Of a stretch of 64,000 bases of DNA, positions 20,415 to 64,000 are shown piece after piece. Within the stretch, counting starts at the first letter, position 1, and each line of letters starts with the position of its first letter. The stretch spans positions 2,108,001 to 2,172,000 of the forward strand of contig NZ_CP134195.1 in the NCBI RefSeq assembly GCF_031585635.1. The letters are read 5' to 3'. Source of the stretch: Paraburkholderia sp. FT54. GTDB lineage: Bacteria; Pseudomonadota; Gammaproteobacteria; Burkholderiales; Burkholderiaceae. The translations under genes and the position numbers were made by a program. The notes below the pieces were generated by a model. The model saw only the letters and a program-made list of their open reading frames with translations. It had not been told where the DNA came from and did no database searches.

Positions 20415-21779
20415 TTGCCATTGAATACCCGTCGAGGCATCAACTGGACGCGCGCGCAAGCGCTCGTCGAGCGCGAACGCCGCGCGTTTGTCGAGGCCAT
20501 GCCGAAGTCGCGCGCGCTGTCCGAACGCGCCGCGCGCCACCTGCTGTTCGGCGTGCCGCTGCACTGGATGAACGACTGGCCGACGCCCTTCTCCCTTTAT
20601 GTCGAAGAAGCACGCGGCGCTGCGTTTACCGATGTGGACGGTCACCGCTATGCGGACTTCTGCCTCGGCGACACCGGCGCGATGTTCGGCCATTCGCCGG
20701 CGCCCGTCGCACGGGCGCTCGCGGCGCAAGCGCAACGCGGCCTGACGACCATGCTGCCGGGCGAAGACGCCGCGTGGGTCGGCGAAGAACTCGCGCGCCG
20801 CTTCGGGCTGCCGTACTGGCAGTTCGCGATGACGGCGAGCGACGCCAACCGCTTCGCGTTGCGCTGGGCACGCGCGGCGACCGGGCGCAGACAGATCGTC
20901 ATTTTCAACGGCTGCTATCACGGCACCGTGGACGACGTCTTCGTCGATCTGGTCGACGGTCAGCCGCAACAGCGCGACAGTTTGATCGGCCAGGTGCACG
21001 ATCTGCTCGGCAGCACGCGCGTGATCGAATTCAACGACCTCGCCGCGCTCGAGGATGCACTCAAAGATGGCGACGCGGCCTGCGTGCTCGCCGAACCTGC
21101 GATGACCAACATCGGCATGGTGCTGCCCGAGGCGGATTACTGGCGCGAGGCGCAAGCGCTGATGCGCCGCTACGGCACGCTGCTCGTCATCGACGAAACG
21201 CACACGATCAGTTGCGGCCCAGGCGGCTATACGAAAGCGCACGGGCTCGAACCCGATCTGTTCGTGCTCGGCAAACCCGTCGCCGGCGGCTTTCCGTGCG
21301 CTGTATATGGCTTCAGCGCTGAATTCGCCGCGCGTGCCCAGCAGGCCAAGCGCAGTGCGCCGCCGGGTCACTCCGGTATCGGCACGACGCTCACCGCGAA
21401 CATGCTGGCGATGAGCGCGATCCGCGCCACGCTCGCCGAGGTGATGACCGATGCGGCCTACGCGCATATGTTCGCGCTGGCGGAGCGCATCGAGAGCGGA
21501 CTGCGGGACGCGATTGCGCGGCATGGCCTCGCGTGGTGCGTGACGCGTGTCGGCGCCCGCAACGAATTCCAGTTCATGCCGACGCCGCCGCGTAACGGCA
21601 GCGAAGCCGGACGGCAACTCGATCACGAACTGGAACACGTCTTGCACCTCTATTTGCTGAACCGCGGCGTGTTGATCACCCCGTTTCACAACATGATTCT
21701 GGTGTGCCCGGAGACGTCGGTACAGGACGTGGACAAGCTGGTCGCCGCGTTCGACGCGTGTCTTGGCGAACTGATGTGA
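20415..21779 (+). CDS. class III PLP-dependent aminotransferase
   Basis: About 454 residues of the fold I, subgroup II aminotransferases (4-aminobutyrate or glutamate-1-semialdehyde type). It shows DVDGHRYADFCLGDTGAMFGHS near the N terminus, the PLP contact NGCYHGTVDD, the VIDETHT cofactor Asp and the Schiff-base Lys in LGKPVAGGFP. GGAGA lies eight bases before the TTG at 20415, which I prefer over the TTG at 20400. Position behind a PuuA-like ligase suggests deamination of an amine-derived intermediate; the exact substrate is unknown. Confidence 0.88.
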   Translation: MPLNTRRGINWTRAQALVERERRAFVEAMPKSRALSERAARHLLFGVPLHWMNDWPTPFSLYVEEARGAAFTDVDGHRYADFCLGDTGAMFGHSPAPVARALAAQAQRGLTTMLPGEDAAWVGEELARRFGLPYWQFAMTASDANRFALRWARAATGRRQIVIFNGCYHGTVDDVFVDLVDGQPQQRDSLIGQVHDLLGSTRVIEFNDLAALEDALKDGDAACVLAEPAMTNIGMVLPEADYWREAQALMRRYGTLLVIDETHTISCGPGGYTKAHGLEPDLFVLGKPVAGGFPCAVYGFSAEFAARAQQAKRSAPPGHSGIGTTLTANMLAMSAIRATLAEVMTDAAYAHMFALAERIESGLRDAIARHGLAWCVTRVGARNEFQFMPTPPRNGSEAGRQLDHELEHVLHLYLLNRGVLITPFHNMILVCPETSVQDVDKLVAAFDACLGELM

Positions 21780-55450: not shown

Positions 55451-55814
55451 CGTTCACATAACGACGCTAGATCATCGAAATGCGGCATTAAACGAGTTGA
55501 CCCAGCCTTCCGGCCACGACTGCATCCTGCAGGACTTGGCTAAGTTACTGTTTCCGGCTCATCGATTTGCCCCTCTATTGGCCCCAAACCGTTACAGCCC
55601 GACCGGCCGGGTACAGCACAACGACGCCACCGCCCCCTGTGTACCTGGTAGTACCATTCGATCTCCGGGTGACGCAGATTGAATTGTTCACCGCGTCGCA
55701 CATAACGCCTGGCGAAACACCGCAGTTAATGGCCTGATTCGAGTCATGCCGCGTAAATCCCGTGACTACTCCTGCCTCACCAGCCAGTTTCCGCAATCGA
55801 CATGGCGCCTCCGG
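55451..55814. other. 364-base region with no recognised gene
   Basis: Between the terminator and the alpha/beta hydrolase stop. A minus-strand frame at 55575-55796 (73 codons) contains Cys and Gly-rich stretches but has no start signal and no recognisable family, and codon use is not like the neighbours. I see no convincing functional element; it could be a remnant separating the core operon from the next cluster. Confidence 0.35.
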
Positions 55815-56570
55815 TCAAGCCGCGATCTGGGCGACCATCCCGCCCACGATCCGGCAAAATCCGTCGGGCTCCTCGAGCATCATCATGTGGCCGACTTCCG
55901 GCTGGACCACGTAGGACAGCGCCGCAGCTTGCGCCCAGTCCGGCGCGTGCCACCCAGACGCGGACCTTTCGCCAGCGAGCATGAAGAGAGGAGTGCCCCG
56001 CTCGACGACCATGCGAATGCGCGAAAGGAAATCGGGCGCGCCCGTTTCCCGCACTACCGCGCGTGCCATTGCCTGAATCGTTTCGCGCGGTTGGTTCGCG
56101 AGTACGGCGCGAGCCCACTCTAGACGCTGCTGCGTGACGACAATGCCGCCGTCCTTCAGCCAGCCCTCCGGATCGGCGACGAGCCGCGCGTGCTCCGCTT
56201 GCCACGCGGTGGCGTCCAGACCGGCGATTTTCCGGCACCAGAATGCATCGTCGAGGGTGAAATTTCCTTCGACATTTATCACCCCGCGCACAAGGTCGGG
56301 CGCGGACGCGGCAACGAGCATCGCGACTGCGCCGCCAACGCTGTGTCCAAGCAGGACACTCGGCGCGCCGACGTGCTCTTGCACATATCGGATCACATGC
56401 GCCGCCTGGCCGGCCAGCGTGATCGGCTCGACCGCGTCGTCTCCCAGCGCGCCGTAGCCAATCAGATCGGGGGTATGAACATCGACGGCGGCGATGCGCC
56501 GGTTCGGCGCATAGAAGCTTTGTGATCCAAACAGGCCGTGAATCAAGACCAGCGGCATAGCTTTACTCAT
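55815..56570 (-). CDS. alpha/beta hydrolase
   Basis: A 251-residue hydrolase: LVLIHGLFGSQSFYAP with the oxyanion HG, nucleophile Ser in LLGHSVGGAVAM and catalytic His in EVGHMMMLEEP. No signal peptide. It is the last gene of the minus-strand cluster that runs from beyond the window end, 65 bases after the MFS gene. It may hydrolyse or cyclise an intermediate, or remove a protecting group; the substrate is unknown. Confidence 0.9.
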   Translation of the reverse strand: MSKAMPLVLIHGLFGSQSFYAPNRRIAAVDVHTPDLIGYGALGDDAVEPITLAGQAAHVIRYVQEHVGAPSVLLGHSVGGAVAMLVAASAPDLVRGVINVEGNFTLDDAFWCRKIAGLDATAWQAEHARLVADPEGWLKDGGIVVTQQRLEWARAVLANQPRETIQAMARAVVRETGAPDFLSRIRMVVERGTPLFMLAGERSASGWHAPDWAQAAALSYVVQPEVGHMMMLEEPDGFCRIVGGMVAQIAA

Positions 56571-56635
56571 GGTGTTTCACCTGGCAATAGGAATGCAACA
56601 ATGTTTCCGGCAACGCCGACGGCGGTTAACCGCTG

Positions 56636-57838
56636 TCAGCGGCTATAAGTCGTTTCGCACACGGCGCCGATGTTCCGTACCGCGTTCCACGTCATGCTCA
56701 TTACGTAGAACACAACGAACGCAAGCGCCGCAACGAACAAACCGTACCGCTGCGCGGCCCAGCTGCCCGCGAAGCCGGCCACGATCATCCCAAGGTAGAC
56801 GCTCGCATACTGGAACGTGGCGACGAGCGCCATATGCTCGGGCGGCGTCGCCGCGACGACGTCAGCCTGATGCTTGAAGAACAGCACCTCCCAGAAAAAC
56901 ATGTAGACAAAGTAGAGCGTGTAGCTGGCCGTCACGTCCCGGAACGCCGCCGATCCCGCCATCGCGCCGAGACAGATCAGGTTCATCGCGAGCATGGCCA
57001 CCTTGCCTGGCGTGATGCCACGCCGGCTCGCGAGCGCAAACAGCAATGCAGCGATCAGCGCTGACGTCGCGCTGATGATCTGCAGATAGCCGACATAGGT
57101 CTGCGACAGGCCAAGCACCGACGTTGGCAGCGTCACCCGCGACACGTTGAAGAAACCCTGGTAGACCGACACCAGCAGGAAGAACGCGAAAAAGTGACGC
57201 TGCAACGCGGGCGATGTCCGCAGCACCTGCATGAGCGTGCCGAAAGCGCCGGTCGACACGGCGGGGGCAAGTTGGGCCGGCGCGCCGGGCAGCAACATCG
57301 CTGCCAGTGTGCCCAGACCGTATGCAGCGATCGTGATAGCCCCGGCCATCGCCGAGGTGATCTCGCTCTTGTACACCGACAACGCGACACCCGCAATCGC
57401 ACCGGCGATGAACTGCGCGGTCAGCGTGATCGGCAACGCATAGCGAATGTCGTTGGTCGAGAAATAACGTTTGATCGCGACGGTTCGCGCGATCCGCTGC
57501 GTCGCATCCAGGAAACCGATCACCAGCGTGCCAGCGATCGCCGCAGCGACAAAGCGGTCGATCAGCGCGTAGGTCGCCGCCGCGACCAGCACGCCCGCGA
57601 GGTTGAACCAGACGAGGATAGCCTTCGGCGAGCGCCGGCCAGCCGCCGCGTTGATGACGAGGCACAGCAGGACCGGAATCACCATCGGCGCCAGCAGAAC
57701 CGCCTCGGACAGCAACATCGAGCCGGTCTTCTGATACGCAATGTACGACAGATAGACATAACTAAAGACGCTCGCCGCGATCGACGAGAGATTGACGATC
57801 CAAAGCAGCAGACTGACTCGCTGGGGGGTCGGATTCAT
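56636..57838 (-). CDS. MFS transporter, probable product exporter
   Basis: A 400-residue protein with about 10-12 hydrophobic helices, starting SLLLWIVNLSSIAASVFSYV. It resembles the 400-residue MFS exporters found beside biosynthetic genes (macrolide/BacE type) more than sugar or acid importers. The start at 57838 is 23 bases after the ATP-grasp stop; a longer frame upstream is not coding. Its close coupling to the ATP-grasp gene suggests it exports the cluster's product. Confidence 0.88.
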   Translation of the reverse strand: MNPTPQRVSLLLWIVNLSSIAASVFSYVYLSYIAYQKTGSMLLSEAVLLAPMVIPVLLCLVINAAAGRRSPKAILVWFNLAGVLVAAATYALIDRFVAAAIAGTLVIGFLDATQRIARTVAIKRYFSTNDIRYALPITLTAQFIAGAIAGVALSVYKSEITSAMAGAITIAAYGLGTLAAMLLPGAPAQLAPAVSTGAFGTLMQVLRTSPALQRHFFAFFLLVSVYQGFFNVSRVTLPTSVLGLSQTYVGYLQIISATSALIAALLFALASRRGITPGKVAMLAMNLICLGAMAGSAAFRDVTASYTLYFVYMFFWEVLFFKHQADVVAATPPEHMALVATFQYASVYLGMIVAGFAGSWAAQRYGLFVAALAFVVFYVMSMTWNAVRNIGAVCETTYSR

Positions 57839-57861
57839 TGTGTGTGGTCTCCGCTCAGTGC

Positions 57862-59211
57862 TCACGCGTGGTCGGGCAGGTGTGCCTCGAGCCCGTCGAT
57901 CAGGCTGTAGGCGGCACGCTTCAGATCGGCCGGCGTGGCGCTGACGAGAAACGCCTGTCCGGCATAGTTCAGCAGTCCGCCCGCACCGTCGTAGGGCATC
58001 ATGCGGCTGCCCGGGTCCACCGACTGAGCGGCTTCTATCCCCACGTTGGCGCGCTCGTCGACAAGCGCACGCCAGTCCACCTGCTCTGGCCTGAAGGTCT
58101 TCGCGCCACGCCACGGGGTGCCCTTGCTGTCGCAGCCGATTAGCGCAATTGACGCCGCCGCGCAGCGCGGCAGGTTCTGCTCGAACGAAGGAATCGGCGT
58201 CCGCTCGCCAAGCATCACGTCGAGAAACAGGTTGATGTAATCCATGCCGAACACCTCATCCACTTCCTTTGCGATCGCGACTCCGCCCATGCGCGCCGCG
58301 GTTTCGAGGAACGACACACCGCCGTTCGCCATCAGCTTCATCTCTGTGTGTGTCGCACAGTTCTCGAAACCGAGCGCGTCGACCGCAGTCCGGACCAGCG
58401 CGACGATCTGCTCCTTCCTGTCGCGACTCAGCACGCATGGCGCTACGTTTCCCAGTTCGGTGAACGGCTCGATGGTACGCAGACGGCCCGTCATCGCAAG
58501 CGGGAAATACTCGCCGTCGCGCACCAGCCCCTCAACGCTGAGATAATCGCCGTATCCATCTTCGGCGTACCACGACTCGGTAGTCGACTCGATGATCTCT
58601 TCAGCTATCAGTTGTGGAAAGCCGGACTGCTCCGAGAACTCATGCTTTCCGGCGCGACGCGCCGCTTCGGTGGCCCCGAGCAGACGCGCGACGGCGCTGT
58701 CGAGTTCATACATGCCATGGACGATTTGCTGGCCGATCGAACCTGCGCCATACGCGAGCTTGATTAGCACCGGAAAGCGCAATTCCGCGACCCGATGCAA
58801 GTCGTCGTGCCGGCGGATCGCGCGAAATGCCGGCTGCGGCAGACCCGCTTCCTGCCAGCGCTGGCGCATCAGTGTTTTGTTGCGCGCGAGGTTGATATTC
58901 GGGCCTACGCCGCGCACGCCCAGTTGCACCGCGAGTTCCGACACGGACTTTAAAAGGAACTCGGAAAACGTGAACACGACGTCCGGCTTCAGCGTATGCG
59001 CGATTTCGGCAACGCGCGCGAAACCGTCGTCCGGCCGCAGCCCGCTGAAATCGTGCAGCGCGGCGCTGTGCTTGCGCAGGATCTCGAGGTTATAGGAGGA
59101 CGGCTCGCTGACGACGCAGGTATGCACGTCGCCGCGGCTCGCGACTTTCGGGAAGAAGTAGTCGAGCGGCGGCCCCGCCGGCGCGTATACGTAGAGAATC
59201 TTCTTGGTCAT
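57862..59211 (-). CDS. ATP-grasp ligase
   Basis: A 449-residue enzyme. Residues about 115-330 form the ATP-grasp fold: PVLIKLAYGAGSIGQQIV is the nucleotide-binding loop and HTEMKLMANGGVSFLETAAR with MGG holds the metal-binding Glu and Arg. The N-terminal domain (KKILYVYAPAGPPLDYFFP) is a Rossmann-like pre-ATP-grasp unit. It joins a carboxylate to an amine or thiol through an acyl phosphate; similarity in layout to amino acid ligases of the BacD type is by eye only. The ATG at 59211 is chosen. It sits between a carbamoyltransferase and the exporter. Confidence 0.87.
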   Translation of the reverse strand: MTKKILYVYAPAGPPLDYFFPKVASRGDVHTCVVSEPSSYNLEILRKHSAALHDFSGLRPDDGFARVAEIAHTLKPDVVFTFSEFLLKSVSELAVQLGVRGVGPNINLARNKTLMRQRWQEAGLPQPAFRAIRRHDDLHRVAELRFPVLIKLAYGAGSIGQQIVHGMYELDSAVARLLGATEAARRAGKHEFSEQSGFPQLIAEEIIESTTESWYAEDGYGDYLSVEGLVRDGEYFPLAMTGRLRTIEPFTELGNVAPCVLSRDRKEQIVALVRTAVDALGFENCATHTEMKLMANGGVSFLETAARMGGVAIAKEVDEVFGMDYINLFLDVMLGERTPIPSFEQNLPRCAAASIALIGCDSKGTPWRGAKTFRPEQVDWRALVDERANVGIEAAQSVDPGSRMMPYDGAGGLLNYAGQAFLVSATPADLKRAAYSLIDGLEAHLPDHA

Positions 59212-59264
59212 GGTTGCGGAATGCCTCAGGCAGAACGTATGCGATTCGGGAACCCGGTGGGAGC

Positions 59265-60833
59265 TTACTTGCGGATCACGCAGAACCGGTCGTCGTAGAC
59301 GAAGCCGTCGGTCCCAGTGGTTTTGCAGTACAGGTAGAGGTCGCTCGTGCGGTTGATGAAGCCAGTGCCGTTGAAGTTCAGCGACGTGTTGCACAGCACA
59401 CCTGAGCCGGTCTGAGCACGGAACTGCGTGAGCAGCTCGTGCATCCGTGGGTTCTGCTGCGCGTTCACGGTCTGCACACGCGCAGTGCCGTCGACGTGCG
59501 TGATAGCAGCCAGTTCGGGATTGCGCACTTTCTGAAAGTACAGCATGTGCGGCGAAGGACCGGCCCAGTCGAAGTGACGCGACACATCTTCCTCCAGGCA
59601 AATGGGTGCCACGGGACGGAACCCTTCGCGCTTCTTGATGCGGTTCAGGCGATCGCATGTCGATCGCGCGAACGGCGCGGCGAGAATCGAGCGGTTGCCG
59701 AGCGCGCGCGGGCCGATTTCGCACCGTCCCTGGGTCCACGCGACGATGTTGTCCTGTGCGAGAAAGCCGGCGACGCGCGCCAGATCCAGCGGATAGGTAT
59801 CGACGTCCGGCATGTCCGGCTGATCATCGATGAACGCACGGTCGCTATAGACTGACCACTCGAGCTTCGCGCGGTCCGTGAACTCCCGCATCGCGTCGAC
59901 GGCGGTGCCGATCGCGGAGCCCGTGTCGTTCGTGCACGGTGGTACAAACACGTCCTCGAACAGTCCGCTGTTGCGCCACATCGTGTTCCAGTCGCAGTTG
60001 AGCCCGCATCCTCCGGAAATCAACAGCGGATAGCCATCCGTCAGATGCTCCTTTGCGTACATATAGAAGCGGTTGAAGATCTCATCAGAGTAACGCCTAG
60101 CGAGCCGGGTGAAATCCGGATGCTGCAAGCCGATGTTGTAATACTTCGATTTGCGTAGATCGTCCTTCGACAGCGTCGCGAGGATGCTGTCGCGCTCCAG
60201 CAGAAAATTGGTGATCTCGCGCTCGTCACGCGACATTTCGCCAGATTGCCCGTACGCGCACAGCGCCATCAGTTTGCCCGGGTCCTCGTTGCGCAGCTTG
60301 CCCTTCGGCAACGTGAACGTGGGGTCCGCGAGCGCGTACAGAAACGCGTACTTGTTGCCTGGCGTGATCATCACGCGGCCGACGTGATGCACGTCCAGTT
60401 TTTCGTCGACCAGATAGAAGTCGCCGAGCGCGCCTTCCCATGCGAGCACATAGCACGGCTTGCCCTGCTCGAAAGGCGACAAGCCATACGCGCACCAGAT
60501 GTGCGAGCGTTCATGGCTGCTGGTGAAATAGTTTACGTTCGCACCGAACATCGTCGTGCGGTGATGTTGGACCGCCCCGCTGCCGTGTCCGTAATAGCCG
60601 GCGCCGATGGGCGCGTTCGCTGCCATAGAGCCCTTGCCCCAACCGCTCACGGCAAATACGTCCGGCATCGCGCCAAGCTGCTCGGCGGCAAACACGAACT
60701 GCGACGGATTGAACACCTCATAGCGCGGAAAGCTGTCCTTCTCCGGTTCGAACGACCATTCCAACTTGCCGCTCGCAGCATCGATCAGCGCAATGGCGCC
60801 ATCATGGCCCGGCTTCATAGCAAAAATCTTCAC
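59265..60833 (-). CDS. NodU/TobZ-type carbamoyltransferase (divergent copy)
   Basis: A 522-residue two-domain O-carbamoyltransferase. The N-terminal Kae1-like domain keeps the metal-site His-x3-His as SHERSH (His107, His111). The C-terminal YrdC-like domain has QGRCEIGPRALGNRSI and REGFRPVAPICLEED, then NTSLNFNGTGFI. In TobZ these domains make carbamoyl-adenylate and move the carbamoyl group to a hydroxyl. It differs strongly from the copy at 62472, including the HHxSHA motif, so the two probably have different acceptors. GC content and codon use are like the chromosome. Confidence 0.9.
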   Translation of the reverse strand: MKIFAMKPGHDGAIALIDAASGKLEWSFEPEKDSFPRYEVFNPSQFVFAAEQLGAMPDVFAVSGWGKGSMAANAPIGAGYYGHGSGAVQHHRTTMFGANVNYFTSSHERSHIWCAYGLSPFEQGKPCYVLAWEGALGDFYLVDEKLDVHHVGRVMITPGNKYAFLYALADPTFTLPKGKLRNEDPGKLMALCAYGQSGEMSRDEREITNFLLERDSILATLSKDDLRKSKYYNIGLQHPDFTRLARRYSDEIFNRFYMYAKEHLTDGYPLLISGGCGLNCDWNTMWRNSGLFEDVFVPPCTNDTGSAIGTAVDAMREFTDRAKLEWSVYSDRAFIDDQPDMPDVDTYPLDLARVAGFLAQDNIVAWTQGRCEIGPRALGNRSILAAPFARSTCDRLNRIKKREGFRPVAPICLEEDVSRHFDWAGPSPHMLYFQKVRNPELAAITHVDGTARVQTVNAQQNPRMHELLTQFRAQTGSGVLCNTSLNFNGTGFINRTSDLYLYCKTTGTDGFVYDDRFCVIRK

Positions 60834-60938
60834 GGAACTCCTGTCCTTGTTGACCTGGGGCGCTCACTGTCCCCCGTGGAATGAACATCGCGGCGCCCCG
60901 TCGGTCGCGGAGGCGCCTCGCCCGTCTGTTCTGTACGC

Positions 60939-61052
60939 TCAGCGAAGCGGATAGATCGAACTCTCCTGCTTCTTCTTACTCTTCCGGAACAGCTTGCGGA
61001 ACAACGCGGCAATGATCGCGATAAAGCCAGCTTTCTTCGTCTGCGGTTTCAT
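60939..61052 (-). CDS. 37-residue cationic amphipathic peptide
   Basis: ATG at 61052 is preceded by GGAGGAATTC, one of the best ribosome binding sites in the window. The peptide begins MKPQTKKAGF, continues with a hydrophobic helix (FIAIIAALF), then a Lys/Arg-rich segment (RKLFRKSKKKQ) and ends ESSIYPLR. It lies between the SGNH and carbamoyltransferase genes, in line with the operon. It may be a small membrane-associated subunit (small membrane proteins accompany carbamoyltransferases in other clusters, e.g. sxtI-sxtJ-sxtK) or a ribosomal precursor for the ATP-grasp enzyme. Function unknown. Confidence 0.6.
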   Translation of the reverse strand: MKPQTKKAGFIAIIAALFRKLFRKSKKKQESSIYPLR

Positions 61053-61084
61053 GAATTCCTCCAGTTGCCACTTCCGGCAAGTCG

Positions 61085-62179
61085 TTAAAGCACCTTGTTG
61101 GCGATCAGGCGCGCTACTTCGTTGTAGCCCTTGTCGTTGAAATGCACGCGATCGACAAACAGGTAGTCGTCGATGACCGGCGAGTCGCGCAGCAGCACGT
61201 TCATGTCGGCGAAACCGATCTTCCGCTTCTCGCAGATTTCGCGTATGCCGTCGGCAAACGGGACATGAATCTCCTTGCCGAGGATCCCCGCAAAAAGTCG
61301 CCAGAAGTTGTTCGGACAACTGTCAATCGCGTGAAAGATGTCCGCCTCGTCCAGCGTCAAATGATCACGGGTCCAGAACGACATCGGTTGCAAAACGAAA
61401 CTCAACTTCGCCCCCGTTCCAGCCAGTAACTGCTGCCACTGCTTCAGCGAGTTCGAAACGACCCAAGCCGCACGTTTGACCCGCGCATCGGTGTCGGTAC
61501 TGTCGTCGGTGATCACGACGTCGGCAGGGTTGTCCTCCGACAGCAACCGGTTGATATATCGGGAGATGAAGTTCTTCTCGCGACCGTCCAGCGTCGACGC
61601 GTAAGTTCGCGCGCGCCGTTTCAGATCGTCGTTGTACCGGTTCATGTAGTGTTGATACTCGAACGAGTAGTAGTAACGCCCGTGGTCGGTGGCGAGTTCG
61701 TCGGGCTGCCCTTCGAGCGCGAGTGTATTGATGCCGCTCAGCACCACGATGTGATTGATCTGCTCGAAGCGGTGCTGATGCATCATGTACATGAGCACCT
61801 CCTGGACCGCGTTATAGCCGCGTCCGCTGAAATTCAACCATGGCTCGCCGGTCCACGCGGCGAGCCGTGAGGCGACGGTGTGCGAATCTGCCGTTGCGCC
61901 CGTGCCCAGCGCGGTCGAGCCACCGACCAGCAGGTTGACCTGTCGCCCGCTCGGTAGATTGGCGACGCTCACGTCGCGGACGTCGCCGAATGTGCTGAGC
62001 CGGAAACCCAGATCGTCCGTGTTGATCACGTCGGACCGGTAGTTCTTATGATGAAAGAACATCGTGTACGGCAGCCAGCGCACGCCGAGATACATAAACT
62101 CGTCATACTCGCGGATCTGCGGCGTCAACCGGTACACCTCGCGAACCGCCTCATCGTGCGTCAATGCGCGCCTGTCCAT
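61085..62179 (-). CDS. SGNH/GDSL-like hydrolase
   Basis: A 364-residue protein. NLLVGGSTALGTGATADSHT holds the nucleophile Ser (block I variant GGST), NFSGRGYNA the block II Gly, HIVVLSGINT the block III position and VDRVHFNDKGYNEVA the catalytic Asp and His. There is no signal peptide, so it is probably cytosolic, or membrane-associated with its neighbour. It could be an acyl esterase or an acetyltransferase-like tailoring enzyme. Start is 20 bases after the small membrane protein gene. Confidence 0.85.
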   Translation of the reverse strand: MDRRALTHDEAVREVYRLTPQIREYDEFMYLGVRWLPYTMFFHHKNYRSDVINTDDLGFRLSTFGDVRDVSVANLPSGRQVNLLVGGSTALGTGATADSHTVASRLAAWTGEPWLNFSGRGYNAVQEVLMYMMHQHRFEQINHIVVLSGINTLALEGQPDELATDHGRYYYSFEYQHYMNRYNDDLKRRARTYASTLDGREKNFISRYINRLLSEDNPADVVITDDSTDTDARVKRAAWVVSNSLKQWQQLLAGTGAKLSFVLQPMSFWTRDHLTLDEADIFHAIDSCPNNFWRLFAGILGKEIHVPFADGIREICEKRKIGFADMNVLLRDSPVIDDYLFVDRVHFNDKGYNEVARLIANKVL

Positions 62180-62199
62180 TCAACCTCCTCGTCTCGATG

Positions 62200-62421
62200 T
62201 CAGGAATTGCGGCTCGTGAACTGCTCTACGCTGCCCTGGTGAAGGCGCGCACCGTTCGTCCGGCAGATCGGAAACAGATGAAAGTAGGTTGATGCCCGTT
62301 CGTGCTTACGCAAACGGAGCGTGTCCGAGACCAGCCGCGCGCATGCTCCGACCGGAACGACGAAGATGAAAAACGACAACGTGAGAACGACAAGCAACAC
62401 AAATCTGAAGACCATTTTCAT
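62200..62421 (-). CDS. small membrane protein, 73 residues
   Basis: One strongly hydrophobic N-terminal helix (VFRFVLLVVLTLSFFIFVV) followed by PVGACARLVSDTLRLRKHE and a polar tail. The stretch after the helix recalls the end of SxtJ-type small membrane proteins found beside carbamoyltransferases (P-G-x-x-x-R, D, L-R-L-R, then S-T-Y); this is tentative. It lies 50 bases after carbamoyltransferase 2 and 20 before the SGNH gene. Confidence 0.65.
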   Translation of the reverse strand: MKMVFRFVLLVVLTLSFFIFVVPVGACARLVSDTLRLRKHERASTYFHLFPICRTNGARLHQGSVEQFTSRNS

Positions 62422-62471
62422 GGACGTCCCGAAGAATAAAACTGCATGGATACAGGGCGACGTCGCCCGGG

Positions 62472-64000
62472 TCAGTCGAGTGCGAATTCGGTGCGCCAGT
62501 CGCCCTCCTCCACCAGTTCCGGCTGATCGGCCTTGCGCAGCACGAAGTTGCCCAACACGAGGTAATCCATCTGAGTGCGCATGAAGCAGAGGTAAGCATT
62601 CGACGGCGTCTCGACGATCGGCTCCCCGCGCACGTTGAACGACGTGTTGACGAGGACCGGATAGTTCGTCTGTTGATGGAACGCTTCGAGAAGCTGCCTG
62701 AAGCGTGGATTCGCGTCCTTGCCCACCGTCTGAACGCGCGCCGAGAAATCGACGTGTGTGACGGCGGGAATCGACGAGCGCACGCAGTTAAGCAGATCGA
62801 TGCCAGTCAGCGCTTGCTGCGACGCGCTGACCGGCTTGCGATGGGTGGGCTGGACATCGACGACGAACAGCATGTACGGGCTCGCGCTGTCCAGACTGAA
62901 CCACTCTTTCGCGTGCTCCTCCAGCACGGCCGGCGCGAACGGCCGGAACGACTCGCGGTTCTTGATCTTGAGATTCATCACGCTTTGCATCGTCTGGTTG
63001 CGCGGATCGCCGAGAATCGAGCGCGCGCCCAGTGCACGCGGCCCAAATTCCATGCGGCCCTGAAACCAGCCGACCACATTGCCCTCCGCGAGCAACCCGG
63101 CGACATGGGCCGGCAGAGCCTCGTCGGAGAGCCGCTCGAACACCGCACCGTGGCCGTTGAGAACGACCTCGATTTCCGCATTGCTATAGGACGTGCCGAG
63201 CAGCGTCGCTTTCATCCGGTCCGTCGATCCGAGCGTACGAGCGTGCCCCATCTGCATGTGCCAGCCCGCGAGCGCCGCCCCAAGCGCGCCACCTGCATCG
63301 CCGGCGGCTGGCTGCACCCAGATTCGGTCGAAGACCCGCGCCTTGAGTAGCTTGCCGTTCGCGACGCAATTCAGCGCGACGCCGCCCGCAAGACACAAGT
63401 TGCGCTGGCCCGTCTGCTTGCGTATCGTGCGGCCGATGCGCAGCATCGCTTCCTCGAGCACGCGCTGCACCGACGCGGCGAGGTCGAACTCACGCTTCGT
63501 GATGCGGCTCTCGGATGCGCGGCGTGGCCCGCCAAATAGCGTCGCGAACTCGTCGCTGACCATGCAGTTGCCGACTGCGTAATCAAGGTACTTCATGTTC
63601 AACCAGAAACTACCGTCCGGCTTCAGGTCGATCAGGTTGTCGAGAATCATGTCGTAGTAGACCGGCTCACCATACGGCGCGAGCCCCATCAACTTGTACT
63701 CGCCCGAATCGACCTTAAACCCACAGAAGTAGGTCATCGCTGAGTACAGCAGGCCGAGCGAGTGGGGAAAACGGATCTCCCAGACTGGGTGCAGGGTGTT
63801 CCGCTCACCAACCCACGCGCTGGTGGTCGCCCATTCGCCGACGCCGTCCACGCACAACACGGCTGCGTCCGGCAACGGACCCGGGAAGAACGCCGCCGAT
63901 GCATGCGACACATGATGATCGATGTAATGGACCGCCGGTACACGCGCGGATTCCCCAAAGCCCGTCTCCAGTTTCCGCCGAACTAGCCGTTTGACGAACA
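62472..64000 (-). CDS. NodU/TobZ-type carbamoyltransferase (5' end beyond window)
   Basis: About 509 residues are visible; the frame is open to the last base of the window, and residues upstream of the GTG at 63911 are clearly family sequence (VPAVHYIDHHVSHASAAFFP, the HHxSHA metal motif). The YrdC-like domain has QGRMEFGPRALGARSILGDP, KNRESFRPFAPAVLEEH and NTSFNVRGEPIVE. A canonical carbamoyltransferase of the NodU/CmcH class, expected to move carbamoyl from carbamoyl phosphate to a hydroxyl group. First visible gene of the minus-strand cluster. Confidence 0.93.
   Translation of the reverse strand, partial: FVKRLVRRKLETGFGESARVPAVHYIDHHVSHASAAFFPGPLPDAAVLCVDGVGEWATTSAWVGERNTLHPVWEIRFPHSLGLLYSAMTYFCGFKVDSGEYKLMGLAPYGEPVYYDMILDNLIDLKPDGSFWLNMKYLDYAVGNCMVSDEFATLFGGPRRASESRITKREFDLAASVQRVLEEAMLRIGRTIRKQTGQRNLCLAGGVALNCVANGKLLKARVFDRIWVQPAAGDAGGALGAALAGWHMQMGHARTLGSTDRMKATLLGTSYSNAEIEVVLNGHGAVFERLSDEALPAHVAGLLAEGNVVGWFQGRMEFGPRALGARSILGDPRNQTMQSVMNLKIKNRESFRPFAPAVLEEHAKEWFSLDSASPYMLFVVDVQPTHRKPVSASQQALTGIDLLNCVRSSIPAVTHVDFSARVQTVGKDANPRFRQLLEAFHQQTNYPVLVNTSFNVRGEPIVETPSNAYLCFMRTQMDYLVLGNFVLRKADQPELVEEGDWRTEFALD

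Follow-up and report, generated by a model that had tools for sequence, protein, structure and literature searches.

We analysed a window of 64,000 nucleotides from Paraburkholderia sp. FT54 (contig NZ_CP134195.1, positions 2,108,001 to 2,172,000), the end of which is occupied by a compact gene cassette resembling the gvg clusters for FVG, a natural herbicide known from Pseudomonas fluorescens WH6. The genome holding the window comprises 8.65 Mb in five contigs; among named proteins, its closest relatives belong to Paraburkholderia. The cassette consists of nine genes within 11.1 kb, and extends from window position 55,799 to about 66,922 (numbering is continued past the window end). The first-pass annotation had recognised eight minus-strand genes, mostly spaced by 20 to 105 bases; all eight proved to be open frames, and the gaps between them, from the hydrolase to carbamoyltransferase 1, measure 65, 23, 53, 105, 32, 20 and 50 bases. 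The features are as follows.

55815..56570, minus strand: alpha/beta hydrolase, 251 residues (PF12697, 6.3e-18); last gene of the conserved block
56636..57838, minus strand: membrane transporter, probably MFS-type, 400 residues, many hydrophobic segments (PF07690, E 0.5 only)
57862..59211, minus strand: BacD-like ATP-grasp L-amino acid ligase, 449 residues (PF13535; BacD 7.5e-40, residues 62-341)
59265..60833, minus strand: carbamoyltransferase 2, 522 residues (PF16861, 1e-54; PF02543, 5.7e-22, part of the model; GdmN 9e-39, residues 238-520)
60939..61052, minus strand: GvgB-like lysine-rich peptide, 37 residues, 8 of them lysine, ending in SSIYPLR; adjoins the SGNH gene
61085..62179, minus strand: GvgA-like SGNH hydrolase of the CgnD family, 364 residues (CgnD 3.8e-60 by profile; Foldseek 1.1e-20)
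62200..62421, minus strand: GvgG-like small membrane protein, 73 residues, with a short SxtJ-like segment (profile comparison with SxtJ-type proteins)
62472..64313 (window end 64000), minus strand: carbamoyltransferase 1, GvgF-like, 613 residues (PF02543, PF16861; GdmN 8.9e-92)
64351-66513, beyond the window, 37 bases past carbamoyltransferase 1: GvgC-like tandem haem-oxygenase-like protein, 720 residues, ninth gene (PF14518, 82.7 bits)

Pfam matches back both carbamoyltransferases, the ATP-grasp domain and the alpha/beta hydrolase. The SGNH match falls slightly below the Pfam cut-off (PF13472, 32.0 vs 32.9 bits), and the MFS label of the transporter is a weak one, taken from hydropathy. The score of the 720-residue protein against the iron-containing redox domain PF14518 (cut-off 28.9 bits) places it among the haem-oxygenase-like diiron oxygenases, and Glu, His and Asp residues of the metal-ligand type are kept in 17/17 cases. 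Carbamoyltransferase 2 was rejected as a NodU protein (253 bits vs a cut-off of 1000).

The ATP-grasp protein is related to the ATP-grasp L-amino acid ligases: PF13535 scores above its cut-off, the match to BacD (PDB 3wo1) covers 280 aligned residues, and BL00235 is matched at 2.2e-11. Although it shares the L-amino acid ligase fold with the bacilysin ligase BacD, it lies far under the cut-off of the NCBIfam BacD model (149.2 vs 850 bits), and is not BacD proper, the alanine-anticapsin ligase. Valine occupies the site of Trp332 in BacD. A 725-residue protein, P0061, features a relative of the ligase fused to an alpha/beta hydrolase domain.

Conservation, flanks and distribution of the cassette

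Two other genomes of the genus carry the whole gene set with its order unchanged, at 85-95% protein identity in one (G830) and 45-90% in the other (G020). Translated searches (tblastn) revealed that even the small frames are kept in these genomes, the 37-residue frame at 92% and 81% identity and the 73-residue frame at 85% and 45%; the transporter copies are 90% identical in G830 and 76% in G020. Because gene order and small frames are both retained, the set is not a chance assembly. In G020 (L021 5855-10803), where the copy is otherwise complete, both carbamoyltransferase frames are broken in the assembly, through either decay or assembly error.

At the DNA level, the match to G830 runs from 55799 to 66922 at 90% identity, and no further match of at least 200 bases was found between the compared stretches of the two genomes. 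Two genes near the G830 copy resemble, by eye, bioF and bioA. In FT54, a DDE transposase gene (66928-67716) lies directly past the end of the block, in a stretch of lower GC content, and stands between the cassette and a polysaccharide locus, in which a galU-like gene (69336-70370) is followed by glycosyltransferases, a flippase, and gmd-like and Wzc-like genes (all named by eye). The first-pass annotation had held that a standard capsule or nodulation locus past the window end would refute its reading. A polysaccharide locus is indeed present, but it lies outside the shared block; since this block ends short of it, and the flanks in G830 are different ones, the cassette is not part of the locus.

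The cassette is uncommon. With the FT54 genome counted each time, 6 of 144 genomes from the genus carry the SGNH gene; the count is 2 of 369 at the level of the class and 1 of 399 at that of the order. A ligase relative with at least 80% identity is present in 2 of 40 relatives, and of 398 family members 1 gives a ligase match at E 1e-30. Such a scarce and scattered occurrence is what one would expect of a transferred cluster. GC content (0.614 in the cassette, 0.621 in the window) shows no anomaly, and speaks neither for nor against transfer. In Paraburkholderia caledonica NBRC 102488 (L022 10001-10159), a ligase match of 53 residues only, at 91% identity, resembles a cassette remnant.

Relation to gvg and crocagin clusters

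According to PMC8067088, the gvg genes for FVG include gvgA (lipase/esterase), gvgB (lysine-rich), gvgC (haem-oxygenase 2), gvgF (NodU-family carbamoyltransferase), gvgG (a small ORF), gvgH (aminotransferase), gvgI (formyltransferase) and LysE exporters. Clusters of this kind, with a core of A, B, C and F, occur in several genera and in at least eight variants, and the vast majority of the clusters are called uncharacterised (Davis et al. 2021, PMC8064604). The term uncharacterised, used for the present cluster in the first-pass annotation, therefore has to be qualified: the cluster type was catalogued in 2021.

We used as reference a Photobacterium plasmid cluster that encodes an SGNH protein, a 35-residue peptide, a haem-oxygenase-like enzyme, a carbamoyltransferase, a class III aminotransferase, a formyltransferase and LysE. 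The cassette proteins are 32% (A), 33% (C) and 56% (F) identical to their counterparts, with which their domains agree. The 37-residue peptide is of the gvgB type, being 22% lysine and having the same C-terminal tail as the Photobacterium peptide. All four core genes of the published definition are thus present. The 73-residue membrane protein is of the gvgG type, a link drawn from the published description and from other gvg-like loci, as no GvgG-type frame was found in the Photobacterium cluster.

In contrast, the Photobacterium aminotransferase, formyltransferase and LysE exporter, which the FVG cluster of WH6 also has, found no match in the cassette by tblastn. GvgH matches weakly at one place in the window (21072-21317) and in the bioA-like gene of G830; GvgI has no match in the window. 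Conversely, the cassette has genes that the FVG cluster lacks. Comparison of the sequences shows a five-gene gvg core (SGNH protein, lysine-rich peptide, haem-oxygenase-like enzyme, NodU-family carbamoyltransferase and small membrane protein) to which carbamoyltransferase 2, the BacD-like ligase, a different transporter and the alpha/beta hydrolase are added.

The term 'ATP-grasp' is absent from the main text of PMC8064604, figures and supplements apart. ATP-grasp-type genes do accompany the core elsewhere. For instance, locus L135, from another genome, has two ATP-grasp-type genes (one match is weak) and a TauD-type dioxygenase alongside the SGNH gene, the peptide, the haem-oxygenase-like enzyme, the carbamoyltransferase and a GvgG-like frame, and Pantoea At-9b has the carbamoyltransferase, the SGNH gene and two ATP-grasp-type genes. 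Ligases may have joined the gvg-like core more than once. In L036 (69-3541; G421, same genus), a further variant, the core stands beside a fusion of a pyridoxal-phosphate enzyme with ornithine cyclodeaminase and an FAD-NAD(P)-binding protein.

The SGNH protein links the cassette to a second pathway. CgnD of the crocagin cluster is its only sequence relative among solved structures, and the structural match has a TM-score of 0.82. Ser79, Asp325 and His328, the CgnD triad (PMC10070186), correspond to Ser88, Asp343 and His346 of the SGNH protein, which are invariant in 26/26 aligned sequences and place it in the CgnD family. Strong scores with a CgnD-type profile were obtained in gvg-like loci only. 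CgnD is slow in releasing the crocagin core from the leader, and shows no measurable binding of the precursor CgnA, which has 21 residues, is rich in positive charges and ends in the core Ile-Tyr-Trp; a carbamoyltransferase is also encoded in the crocagin cluster (PMC10070186). The two systems have in common a CgnD-family hydrolase, a short basic peptide with a C-terminal Ile-Tyr and a carbamoyltransferase. They differ in that the peptide-binding proteins of the CgnB/CgnE type, the dioxygenase and the methyltransferase of the crocagin pathway are not found among the nine cassette genes. The tails are also distinct (IYW in the crocagin precursor, IYPLR in the cassette peptide), and cleavage of the peptide by the cassette SGNH protein is putative.

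A C-terminal tail shared by small proteins beside carbamoyltransferases

In 8 of 9 other loci, a peptide with an SSIYPLR-like end is encoded after the SGNH gene or overlaps its end; these loci are from the same genus and from Agrobacterium, Acinetobacter, Photobacterium and Streptomyces. No such peptide was found beside the SGNH gene of Pantoea At-9b. The tail is not restricted to these peptides. DUF5989 proteins encoded next to carbamoyltransferases of the same subtype have PFIYTLF or a similar sequence at their end, and all five DUF5989 loci compared adjoin an enzyme of this subtype (54-58% identity). Other neighbours, of about 100 residues, end in QFVYAMY or SFVYPVV. The cassette peptide itself is not a DUF5989 protein (no PF19451 match up to E 1), and PF19451 has no match in the FT54 genome.

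The tail was surveyed with the pattern [ILV]Y[PTA][LMIV][FRYV]$. In a first set of 31 loci, picked by us and read within 3 kb of the enzyme, it was present in 18 of 21 loci with at least 47% identity to carbamoyltransferase 1, in 1 of 10 at 41.2% or less, and in none of 4590 other frames. The misses at 47% or above were Pantoea At-9b, P. caribensis and A. brasilense; in A. brasilense, the next gene ends in YNYTFF. The lone tail of the low-identity group is found in Azospirillum oryzae (L063 6040-6324), where a 94-residue frame ending in FVYTLR follows an SGNH gene beside a 41% identical carbamoyltransferase. A second set comprised 69 further loci, 29 supplied by the search and 40 hand-picked from the listed matches. 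The tail was present in 34 of 39 loci at 46% identity or above and in none of 30 below, and 35/35 matches lie on the strand of the enzyme. When four of the five misses were extended (L124 was not among them), L136 gained a match, L135 revealed the variant SSIYPMH, which is outside the pattern, and L137 and L138 yielded none. The FT54 genome carries a third carbamoyltransferase gene (G000 C4:37057-38790; about 41% identity to carbamoyltransferase 1), near which no tail frame was found.

The 73-residue protein has no Pfam match by itself. Comparison of profiles built from 6 and 4 sequences, however, matched it to the C-terminal part of SxtJ-type proteins (probability 96.1, E 3e-9, 41 columns), whereas the best of 50 column-shuffled control profiles reached 0.82. 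The pattern P-x-G...R...(S/T)Y of the SxtJ family is present in its C-terminal membrane segment. The cassette therefore resembles SxtI-SxtJ-SxtK-type sets in its carbamoyltransferase subtype (53-58% identity), the SxtJ-like membrane segment and a small protein with a C-terminal IY tail. It differs from them in that the membrane protein is much shorter, the peptide is not a DUF5989 protein and the pathway genes are others; the comparison covered sets other than the saxitoxin genes themselves.

In two loci (L122 and L123), the carbamoyltransferase itself ends in HRVYTFF, which fits a wider pattern; both were counted as misses below 46%. L120 and L121 carry a carbamoyltransferase that continues into an SxtJ-like domain. 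Natural fusions of this kind point to the carbamoyltransferase as the probable partner of both the tail and the SxtJ-like segment. The tail protein is not always a membrane anchor, as the tail also ends frames of 100 and 108 residues in Paraburkholderia sp. PGU19 and Tateyamaria which, judged by eye, are unlike single-span membrane proteins. The passages on gvgB in PMC8067088, PMC8064604 and PMC5725424 describe no such tail, the term DUF5989 occurs in none of the papers searched, and PMC8067088 was the only paper found that joins FVG, crocagin, 'SxtJ family' or IopA.

Proposed pathway and alternative explanations

We consider it rather probable that the region represents most of a nine-gene, 11.1-kb transferable gvg-like biosynthetic cassette, by which a carbamoylated, N-oxygenated amino acid would be joined to another amino acid and exported. 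Carbamoyltransferase 1 would carbamoylate an amino-acid hydroxyl while held by the small membrane protein and by the IYPLR-tailed peptide, which would dock on it. The haem-oxygenase-like enzyme would oxidise nitrogen, as the N-O bond of FVG requires, and carbamoyltransferase 2 may add another carbamoylation. The ligase would then couple the unusual amino acid to another one, and the transporter would export the product; step order, substrates and product are all putative. Polyoxin biosynthesis follows a similar logic with the carbamoyltransferase PolO, the ATP-grasp protein PolG and PolF, that is, a carbamoyltransferase, a ligase and a haem-oxygenase-like enzyme serving an unusual amino-acid amide. 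The first-pass annotation had likewise suggested a pathway making and exporting a carbamoylated amide or peptide. The BacD-like ligase and the FVG-type core, which belongs to an amino-acid antimetabolite pathway, support this proposal in part, but the analogy to the BacD enzyme extends to the family and not to BacD itself.

The simplest reading of the tail peptide is that it docks on carbamoyltransferase 1, since the tail accompanies this enzyme subtype whatever the rest of the pathway. Several points weigh against this reading and against the pathway at large. Support for docking is indirect, and in crocagin-like clusters the C-terminal Tyr-Trp is a modified core rather than a dock (PMC10070186). 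The tail pattern was made, and then widened, after the first loci had been seen; most matches of the second survey are DUF5989 proteins, which are mutually homologous and hence not independent; and loci L055, L026, L137 and L138 have no tail. The likeness to gvg was established through the Photobacterium cluster and published descriptions rather than by direct comparison with the WH6 gvg sequences, and the product side is likewise conjectural. For the haem-oxygenase-like protein, Foldseek E-values of the model are 0.06 to 0.5 only, and the structural matches come from the N-terminal half while the Pfam match lies in the other half; a working metal site and a fold like those of the haem-oxygenase-like N-oxygenases RohS, HrmI and SznF are therefore putative. 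The MFS label of the 400-residue protein is also putative, as are the ligase substrates.

The 37-residue peptide might instead be a ribosomal precursor. Its C-terminal SIYPLR would be modified by the carbamoyltransferases and the haem-oxygenase-like enzyme, the CgnD-like SGNH protein would release it, and the ligase would extend it; a ribosomal peptide would in that case be the source of, or the support for, FVG and other gvg-like products. We regard this as somewhat unlikely. The kinship of the SGNH protein with CgnD, the corresponding triads, the confinement of strong CgnD-type scores to gvg-like loci, and the likeness to CgnA of a short, basic peptide with an IYPLR end that adjoins the SGNH gene all argue for it, as does the carbamoyltransferase of the crocagin cluster. 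Yet the same kind of tail occurs beside carbamoyltransferases of this subtype where no CgnD-type gene was found (many of these stretches reach only about 1.5 kb to each side), its fusion to two such enzymes is more in line with docking, FVG consists of a single amino acid, and CgnD itself is slow and does not measurably bind CgnA. Docking and precursor roles could both be valid at different stages.

That the SGNH and haem-oxygenase-like proteins are regulators, with chemistry confined to the carbamoyltransferases and the ligase, appears improbable. GvgA and GvgC are suspected regulators, as knocking out gvgA or gvgC in WH6 silences the gvg operon, and these knock-outs, together with that of gvgR, change 687 genes in all; however, loss of the predicted aminotransferase gene gvgH has the same effect (PMC8067088). 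Feedback therefore explains the gvgA and gvgC knock-outs, and the invariant SGNH triad and the retained metal-ligand-type residues also speak against a regulatory role. Least probable is decoration of a surface polysaccharide, which the first-pass annotation had offered as its other option. The polysaccharide locus begins about 2.4 kb past the last cassette gene, and relatives of carbamoyltransferase 1 occur with SxtJ and DUF5989 near polysaccharide genes in Paludisphaera and Aquisphaera, but the end of the conserved block and the different G830 flanks separate the two loci, and the cassette features a BacD-like ligase and no glycosyltransferase.

Beyond the cassette, we tentatively propose, as a possibility that we hold with more doubt than the pathway above, that GvgB, the DUF5989/SxtK-type proteins and the unlike small proteins are one functional part, in which a C-terminal I-Y-[PT]-[LM]-x tail serves carbamoyltransferases of the SxtI/GvgF type. 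Where a CgnD-type protease has been added, the tail peptide would itself be processed, and a ribosomal peptide would serve as scaffold or precursor for FVG, its relatives and the cassette product.

In WH6, GvgB has 28 residues and is required for FVG, and its function is called unclear (PMC5725424). The occurrence of one tail on this lysine-rich type of peptide and on small proteins encoded beside related carbamoyltransferases suggests a role for a puzzling peptide. If true, the present reading would give a testable role each to GvgB (carbamoyltransferase tail peptide), GvgA (CgnD-type hydrolase) and GvgC (N-oxygenase), and a common tail and a common membrane segment would link small families of unknown function (DUF5989, SxtJ, GvgB and GvgG). 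With its BacD-like ligase, the cassette itself hints at a gvg-like variant that may convert an unusual amino acid into a dipeptide.

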